Shown here: piece after piece, positions 24,141 to 33,613 of the stretch | How positions within the stretch are numbered: the first letter of the stretch is position 1 | Layout of the letters: every line of letters starts with the position of its first letter | Assembly: GCA_028281525.1 (NCBI GenBank) | Contig: JANQJR010000057.1 | Location: 1-64,000 of the forward strand | Direction: 5' to 3' | Origin: Magnetovibrio sp. | GTDB taxonomy: Bacteria > Pseudomonadota > Alphaproteobacteria > Rhodospirillales > Magnetovibrionaceae | Length of the DNA: 64,000 bases | Translations under genes and position numbers: made by a program | The notes under the pieces: generated by a model | Database searches by the model: none | The model's input: only the letters and a program-made list of their open reading frames with translations | What the model was told of the DNA's origin: nothing

Positions 24141-24281
24141 CTAGAGCCGGATCGACTTAATCTGAATCGCTTTAGCGATGCAGATTAAGACGTGAATCCG
24201 TCTCTCATCAAATGTTTAGAGGGCGATTTACGACTTAATCTTGTGCACAAAGTGACCAAGATTAAGTTGATCGCGCTCTAG
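24141..24281. repeat. 141-bp palindromic repeat element (MITE-like)
   Basis: The ends are 23-base terminal inverted repeats matching at 20 of 23 positions (CTAGAGCCGGATCGACTTAA and CTAGAGCGCGATCAACTTAA, read inward), both starting with CTAG. Each half also folds on itself. The left hairpin (24156-24189) has arms CTTAATCTG/CAGATTAAG plus an inner ATCGCT/AGCGAT. The right hairpin (24233-24267) has arms ACTTAATCTTG/CAAGATTAAGT. It contains no ORF. It occupies nearly all of the space between the AI-2E permease gene and the CDP-alcohol phosphatidyltransferase gene, and supplies the stop codon of the latter. Confidence 0.85.
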
Positions 24282-24823
24282 CGGTCCTCTTCCATCCGGC
24301 CCCATAGGCGTATCCACACCACCGCGTAGGTCACCCCGGACGAAGCCGTGGTCAAGGCCGTGAGAATCACCAAAGCGTCCATGGCCCCGTCCAATTCAAT
24401 GCCGTAACCGATATTGGCCATCACCGCCGCCGCCAGGGTGATCTGCAGAACCGTGTTCAGCTTGCTGACCATCAGCGGCTGCATGGTAAGCGAATGCGTC
24501 ATGGTTTCAAAGAGCAACGCGCCGCCGACGATGAACACATCGCGAAACACCACCAAAATCACCAACCAATTGGGCACGTAGCCCTCAATTCCCAGCGTCA
24601 CGTAAACGGAAACCAGCAGCGCCTTATCGGCGATGGGATCCAGGTATTTACCCAAATCGGTTTCCATGTCGAAACGCTTGGCGAGAAAGCCGTCCAACGC
24701 ATCGGACACGCCCGCCGCGACGAACACCCAAAACGCCCAAATCAAATGACCTTCGACGATCAGCCATACGGTGATCGGCGTAACGGCGATGCGCAGCAGC
24801 GTGATGAAATTGGGGATATTCAA
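24278..24823 (-). CDS. CDP-alcohol phosphatidyltransferase family protein
   Basis: 181 residues starting at TTG 24823 (MNIPNFITLLRIAVTPI), which matches the usual PgsA-like N-terminus. The long ORF to 24976 is an artefact of the overlapping frame. The CDP-alcohol motif is present as SDALDGFLAKRFDMETDLGKYLDPIADK (D..DG..A.R........G...D...D). About five membrane helices are visible. It would join CDP-diacylglycerol to an alcohol such as glycerol-3-phosphate in the inner membrane. It starts 10 bases after the DUF2066 gene stop. Its TAG stop is part of the CTAG terminus of the adjacent repeat element, so the native C-terminus may have been altered. Confidence 0.9.
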   Translation of the reverse strand: MNIPNFITLLRIAVTPITVWLIVEGHLIWAFWVFVAAGVSDALDGFLAKRFDMETDLGKYLDPIADKALLVSVYVTLGIEGYVPNWLVILVVFRDVFIVGGALLFETMTHSLTMQPLMVSKLNTVLQITLAAAVMANIGYGIELDGAMDALVILTALTTASSGVTYAVVWIRLWGRMEEDR

Positions 24824-33095: not shown

Positions 33096-33562
33096 AGCTG
33101 CTCAAGGCCTTTAACTTTACGGAAATGCAAGCTTGGATCGCGGTTATCAGCGCGGTCCTGTTCACCTCGTGCTTTCTCGGCGGCATTTTGAGCGCGCTGT
33201 CGTTCGTCAATTCGAACTTGGTGAAGCCCCGGCCGCTATCGGAACGGATTTCGTTTCGTCTGTTCATCCTCGCGGAAGTCGTCCTTTGGATTTTCGTCTT
33301 CTTCTATCACGTGTTCATGATTGAAGAGATGATTCTGGCTCACATGGTCTACTGGGTCTCCGCCACCTTGATGGCGCCACTGCTTGCCATCATTGGCAGC
33401 CAGTTGATTATGGTGGTCTTCGGCGGCAAGATTCGCGCCAAGGAAGAAGCATACAGACGCCGCCAAAAAGCCATGCGTGCGCAACGCGCGCGGGAAATGG
33501 AGGGGCAGGGAGAAAACCCTGCGGAACGCAACATGACCCGGCGCAAGGGCAAGACGGCTTAG
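33077..33562 (+). CDS. Small inner-membrane protein, unknown
   Basis: 161 residues from ATG 33077 with a strong TGGAGGA site. Three hydrophobic helices are visible (AWIAVISAVLFTSCFLGGILSAL, LFILAEVVLWIFVFFYHVFMI, MVYWVSATLMAPLLAIIGSQLIMVVFGG), followed by a strongly basic cytoplasmic tail of about 45 residues (RRRQKAMRAQRAREMEG and RRKGKTA). I do not recognise the family. The basic tail could contact nucleic acid, phospholipid or another membrane protein. It probably forms an operon with the small overlapping upstream gene and ends in a bidirectional terminator. Confidence 0.75.
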   Translation: MAEAYLELLKAFNFTEMQAWIAVISAVLFTSCFLGGILSALSFVNSNLVKPRPLSERISFRLFILAEVVLWIFVFFYHVFMIEEMILAHMVYWVSATLMAPLLAIIGSQLIMVVFGGKIRAKEEAYRRRQKAMRAQRAREMEGQGENPAERNMTRRKGKTA

Positions 33563-33582
33563 TTCACGTTCCACAAAGAATC

Positions 33583-33613
33583 AAAAAGCGGTGCCTTAAG
33601 CACCGCTTTTTTT
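33583..33613. terminator. Bidirectional intrinsic terminator
   Basis: AAAAAGCGGTGC-CTTAA-GCACCGCTTTTTTT. A perfect 7-base GC stem is extended by A/T pairs on both sides, so it can stop both the membrane-protein transcript (+) and the holC-pepA transcript (-), which converge here. Confidence 0.9.

Follow-up and report, generated by a model that had tools for sequence, protein, structure and literature searches.

Between the genes for a CDP-alcohol phosphatidyltransferase and an AI-2E family transporter, the window analysed here (the whole stretch of 64,000 nucleotides) carries a palindromic element of 141 bp (positions 24141–24281), and the TAG stop codon of the phosphatidyltransferase gene, on the minus strand, lies inside the CTAG at the right end of this element. 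The locus thus raises the question of whether the element is a mobile repeat, how it would have entered the site, and whether its arrival altered the enzyme. A first-pass annotation, made from the sequence alone, had likened the element to a MITE or a REP-type repeat and had proposed that its insertion redefined the C-terminus of the phosphatidyltransferase.

The basic description in that annotation was reproduced throughout: the length of 141 bp, the 23-base terminal repeats identical at 20 of 23 bases (with mismatches at positions 8, 9 and 14), and the absence of a usable ORF, all reading frames of the window copy being short or interrupted; the two internal hairpins that it had noted correspond to two tandem hairpins backed by covariation (Table 1). 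The single-strand fold of the window copy reached -63.6 kcal/mol, compared with -31.2 kcal/mol in shuffles (z = -8.5), and the end pattern occurred twice in the window against 0.00 expected from shuffles. A weak match of the covariance model at 33519–33609 (E = 0.037) was ruled out as a copy, as it is a poly-T terminator hairpin.

Table 1. Features of the window copy and its flanking genes, with positions in the 64-kb window.
Feature	Position	Strand	Basis or remark
Predicted element core (GAGC...GCTC, 135 bp)	24144–24278	.	rhizobial empty sites by analogy; L003 pair sharing one CTAG; copies
Putative target-site duplication, left TA inside CTAG	24142–24143	.	outer bases; rhizobial empty sites
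Putative target-site duplication, right TA inside CTAG; bases 1 and 2 of the minus-strand TAG stop	24279–24280	.	rhizobial empty sites; protein ends
Hairpin 1, imperfect palindrome, with TGA bulge creating GAATC at 24194–24198	24143–24205	+	structure counts
Second GAATC of hairpin 1, near tip	24164–24168		GANTC positions
A+T-rich linker separating both hairpins	24206–24217	.	
Hairpin 2, imperfect palindrome	24218–24279	+	alignment; structure counts
Mirror position of the bulge in hairpin 2: GATTT here, GATTC in the family (mutated)	24225–24229		GANTC positions
CDP-alcohol phosphatidyltransferase (PgsA-type), stop TAG = 24280–24278	24278–24817	-	PF01066, E = 1.4e-30
AI-2E family transporter (PerM-type), PF01594	23061–24116	-	downstream, co-directional

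The genome (3.58 Mb, 72 contigs) contained at least 12 near-full-length copies with 91–95% identity to the window copy, four further copies cut off by contig ends and many fragments, all of these numbers being lower bounds. Moreover, we found a second subfamily of about 12 near-full copies with ends CTAGGGTCGG and CTAGAGTGCG, and single-hairpin derivatives of ~64 bp are known from both subfamilies in this genome. Since four contigs (C26, C56, C61 and C69) start inside copies, the element probably breaks short-read assembly, with underestimated copy numbers as a result. Short palindromes such as CTAGGGTCCGGACCCTAG adjoin several copies in this genome (L005 1638–1659, L012, L275 and L267) and look like two fused IS427-group ends or another small CTAG-ended repeat.

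The element was not found in any of the five other searched genomes of the genus, and one genome of the family (P6-1, G008) carried a divergent set of the repeat. A DNA pattern for the conserved middle led to four named MAGs (Rhodospirillales P6-1 and bin_32, Rhodospirillaceae Bin_26_3 and Bradyrhizobiaceae SJ505). With a covariance model, 31 of the 385 genomes sampled from Alphaproteobacteria, in 27 genera, proved to contain the family. BLAST of the window copy against phages and plasmids and of two other family members against plasmids gave no match, no element was found in viral contigs, and a text search with the terminal sequence returned unrelated primers only. The element is therefore multicopy here and absent from congeners, contrary to the single copy, identical in all relatives, that the first-pass annotation had associated with a conserved terminator or RNA. 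Being short, multicopy, non-coding and bounded by terminal inverted repeats, it has the features of a MITE, and the earlier comparison stands as far as a MITE-like palindromic multicopy mobile element is concerned; the likeness to a classical REP does not, as GTAG is missing from the element and a Y1 transposase from the genome.

In a structure alignment of 38 copies from five genomes, the ends, the middle (CGTGAATCCG ... GCGATTCACG) and the overall plan were constant, and the arm sequences differed by genome. In this plan, two hairpins stand in tandem, and a CcrM site (GANTC) arises from a TGA/TCA bulge in each of them. Under this model 93% of the cells were paired, 31 pairs showed double changes, and two-sided compensatory cells numbered 286 compared with 82 in shuffles; the model collapsed when shifted by a single column. 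G-U pairs made up only 3%, which is more in keeping with a palindrome maintained in DNA than with an RNA, and the compensation could also come from neutral correction of quasi-palindromes, so that covariation alone is no proof of structural selection. A cloverleaf (terminal stem plus three hairpins) fitted most positions and was discarded, as it leaves columns 8–9 and 62–63, which pair under the two-hairpin model, with C:C and G:G mismatches in almost every one of the 38 rows. One variant copy in SJ505 (L112 1577–1715) shows a clean compensatory change, the conserved C-G at the foot of hairpin 1 having become G-C on both sides.

Most ends have CTAG as their outermost four bases, the exceptions being mainly TTAG at left ends and CTAA at right ends, and TTAG on the left was never combined with CTAA on the right in one copy; at locus L003, two elements have one CTAG in common. 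CTAG is scarce in the window, with 24 occurrences against about 232 expected from base composition, and a strongly avoided tetranucleotide is thus the target of the element. The mode of insertion could be read from relatives on Rhizobium plasmids, where a rhizobial repeat used as query proved abundant (366 records). These repeats have the same two-hairpin plan and the TCA bulge, and a covariance model built without them matched them with E values from 2.9e-12 (L205) to 8e-6 (L203). For three of them, independent natural empty sites were present in other strains. One such site reads ...TTCGATCT-TA-GCGGATG when empty and ...TTCGATTT-TA-[GAGC...GTTC]-TA-(A/G)CGGATG when filled; since the filled site has two TA and the empty site one, the rhizobial relatives duplicate TA at a YTAR target. 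At the other two empty sites, which accord with this, one TA or both have decayed; by locus, the duplication was seen at the L202 and L205 sites, and L204 is consistent though decayed. A further rhizobial copy (L214, plasmid pSK05 of Rhizobium leguminosarum BIHB 1148) has lost the body of hairpin 2 and kept its feet, and is a natural deletion derivative.

The earlier proposal of a CTAG target duplication was consequently not borne out, the duplication being TA and CTAG the target: the outer bases differ between ends, and a TA duplication fits the rhizobial empty sites with fewer changes than a 4-bp one. By analogy with these sites, the window copy would also be flanked by a duplicated TA, its core would be limited to the 135 bp listed in Table 1, and the outermost C and G would be host bases. 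The congeners being too divergent in that spacer, its empty site is a predicted one and would read ...GAGGACCGC-TA-GGGCCC... with one TA.

These boundaries bear on the stop codon. The first-pass annotation had stated that the right CTAG supplies the TAG stop of the phosphatidyltransferase gene; the TAG does lie within this CTAG, but since the flanking TAs fall outside the core, TA would come from the target and only the third base, G, from the element. The predicted protein ends in ...WGRMEEDR-stop, and four congeners have equal length (...WSQLEDDT-stop, ...DDQ-stop, ...DDQ-stop and ...DEQ-stop), the fifth being one residue shorter. Because its end residue matches that in four of five congeners, the C-terminus is unchanged by the insertion, and the suggestion that it had been redefined does not hold; for annotation, the TAG of this gene needs no change. 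At the 5' side, the ORF call extends from 24976, and the start of the Pfam domain lies near 24817. Four of the five congeners have the start of the transporter gene within ~30 bases of the pgsA stop, a spacing that is changed in this genome; the element may influence expression of the downstream transporter.

Comparable events were seen elsewhere. The site of another copy (L005) was empty in all five congeners, whose stop at the homologous position was TAA in four and TGA in one, compared with TAG in this genome. Moreover, in 29 of 63 copies one end or both supply the stop of an ORF with 100 codons or more, and stops of ORFs of at least 150 codons fell at 31 of 111 element ends compared with 49 of 450 control CTAGs (P = 1.5e-5). 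Survivorship alone is enough to explain this enrichment, without a true preference for stops. The TA of the target is followed by the G with which the element begins, so that any TAA or TAG stop becomes TAG upon insertion. Because the stop is rebuilt in this way, the element, which often inserts at gene ends, can settle there with the protein unchanged. This rule accounts for the harmless location at gene ends and, together with the empty sites, is what our analysis adds to the knowledge of such repeats.

The bulges of the two hairpins yield GAATC in one and GATTC at the mirror position in the other, each in 37 of 38 copies, and further GANTC sites lie near the hairpin tips, giving a density of 22 per kb in the element compared with 1.6 per kb in the window (13-fold). 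A CcrM-type RAMA protein was present in all eight tested host genomes, including this one, and among 14 control genomes only in Caulobacter. Dam sites tie IS10 transposition to the passing replication fork; as a hypothesis, hemimethylation of the paired CcrM sites might time transposition of the present element in a similar manner and, these sites being symmetric, a link of mobility with the cell cycle can be put to the test. Any effect of methylation on the element would be of this conjectural kind.

The same methylation sites could instead indicate a domesticated element, responsive to CcrM/GcrA and held by selection for GANTC. The mirror pair, the high GANTC density and the CcrM-type protein in every tested host agree with this, but the element is absent from congeners, orthologous sites included, the window copy has lost one of its GANTC sites (GATTT), and the central pair is often missing in distant members, which makes domestication quite improbable. 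If the phosphatidyltransferase operon had a conserved terminator or regulatory RNA here, this would account for the very stable fold, the position between two co-directional genes and the strong covariation. Yet many copies occupy unrelated sites, congeners lack the element both at this site and at L005, the window copy contains neither a T-run nor a terminator-like call, Rfam gave no match above the gathering score, and G-U pairs are few; we thus rejected the element as a conserved part of the operon and give an RNA role very little credence, though it may have a secondary effect on transcripts. Equally far-fetched is a REP/REPIN whose single-stranded hairpins would be acted on by a RAYT (Y1, HUH) transposase. 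The element is like a REPIN in its inverted pair of hairpins, in the tetranucleotide at either end and in the existence of solo hairpins (L025, L027, L028 and L267). A search for Y1 genes gave none for this genome and none for three of four other tested genomes, and TA target duplication, which is typical of DDE transposition, points to that mode. In addition, the tetranucleotide is CTAG rather than the GTAG or CGTC of REPs (PMC3733652).

A mobile DNA element that duplicates TA leaves the choice of transposase. This genome yielded no intact IS630 (DDE_3), IS5/IS427 or Y1 transposase, and a search for an autonomous copy found no pair of element ends around an ORF or transposase; the sole trace of a candidate mobiliser was a decayed fragment of a DUF4096 (IS427-group) transposase (L225 1490–1710, contig C13). 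Termini in common with an autonomous element of the same genome, a feature that supports MITE status but does not define a MITE, were thus absent here. The transposase with matching ends for which the first-pass annotation had suggested looking was found in another host of the family, G090, a complete genome with many copies of the repeat and with IS630-family elements of ~1060 bp in CTAG sites. Their ends, CTAGAGCGGATTCC and CTAGAGCCGTTTTC, have the same outer end TA-GAGC and the same target as the repeat: TA-GAGCGGATTCC and TA-GAGCCGTTTTC compare with TA-GAGCGCGATC and TA-GAGCAGGATC of the repeat, and CTAGAGCGG and CTAGAGCCG with CTAGAGCGC and CTAGAGCCG of the element, a match of only ~7–8 bases and in another genome. 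SJ505, bin_32 and G413 carry the element, and no IS630 gene was detected in them.

A transposase of the IS427 group of the IS5 family (IS711-like, DUF4096) moving the same element is a possible, if somewhat unlikely, alternative. Elements of this group in G090, G060, G062 and G413 are likewise flanked by CTAG, IS711 duplicates TA at YTAR (PMC2266754), the decayed fragment in this genome belongs to the group, and some of its ends, TA-GGGTCGGGAC, come near the TA-GGGTCGGATC of subfamily B; moreover, an element of this group in G090 (L226 1413–2252, ~840 bp) is inserted precisely at the CTAG that ends a palindromic element, a relation also described for IS711 and Bru-RS in Brucella (PMC2266754). 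However, IS427-group ends begin with GG and most elements with GAGC, the likeness stops after ~8 bases, and P6-1, SJ505 and G296 are rich in the repeat but have no DUF4096 match. Because the IS630 ends resemble those of the repeat, whereas IS427-group elements start with GG, mobilisation in trans by an IS630-type transposase is our best guess, held with moderate confidence from end comparison. We therefore favour, with a probability of about 0.8, a non-autonomous, double-hairpin, CcrM-site-bearing mobile element of Alphaproteobacteria, which would move as DNA, insert at TA within CTAG (more generally YTAR) with duplication of TA, and most likely be acted on in trans by an IS630-family (Tc1/mariner-like) transposase. 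Since this genome no longer has such a transposase, its copies are probably immobile at present.

By description, the element belongs with the known palindromic repeats of Alphaproteobacteria (CIR, RIME and Bru-RS). The Rhizobium plasmid repeats, which we take to be RIME1 (rhizobial intergenic mosaic elements; RIME were reportedly described by Osteras in 1995), share with it the two tandem hairpins, the TAGAGC end, the TCA bulge making GATTC and, at three sites, the TA duplication, but are ~115 bp long and have other arm sequences. Among the families described, CIR (CcrM-associated intergenic repeats; Chen and Shapiro 2003, reviewed in PMC2229807), of ~110 bp in Caulobacter, Brucella and other Alphaproteobacteria, appears closest, a comparison that rests on its published outline rather than on the CIR1–4 sequences. 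As far as that outline goes, both are multicopy and intergenic in alphaproteobacterial hosts, with two long inverted-repeat arms and a linker, conserved GANTC and TA at the termini, all of which the element has; it is longer (135–141 bp), with GANTC at the stem bulge as well as near the tip. The mobility of CIR was called unresolved in a 2007 review (PMC2229807), a question on which the clean TA-duplicated empty sites bear by showing that the superfamily transposes. Bru-RS1 and Bru-RS2 of Brucella (103–106 bp), into which IS711 preferentially inserts, duplicating TA at YTAR (PMC2266754, PMC10800456), are also palindromic repeats, likened here by description and not by sequence.

More speculatively, CIR, RIME, possibly Bru-RS and the present element might form one class-wide superfamily of IS630-mobilised, stop-preserving MITEs, in which paired CcrM sites in the stems would couple transposition to replication fork passage and arm sequences would turn over by lineage while palindromes and methylation sites persist; taken as a whole, we consider this unlikely. 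REP/REPIN with RAYT resemble the element in the inverted hairpin pair and the solo forms, and differ from it by GTAG/CGTC, by a Y1 transposase (none in this genome) and by the TA duplication of the element. In its way of working, the closest parallel lies in another phylum: RUP of Streptococcus pneumoniae is a non-autonomous repeat of ~107 bp with TA duplication, for which IS630-Spn1 was proposed as mobiliser from end similarity (PMC2229807, PMC3049150), and which differs from the element in sequence and in being a single folded unit with paired ends.
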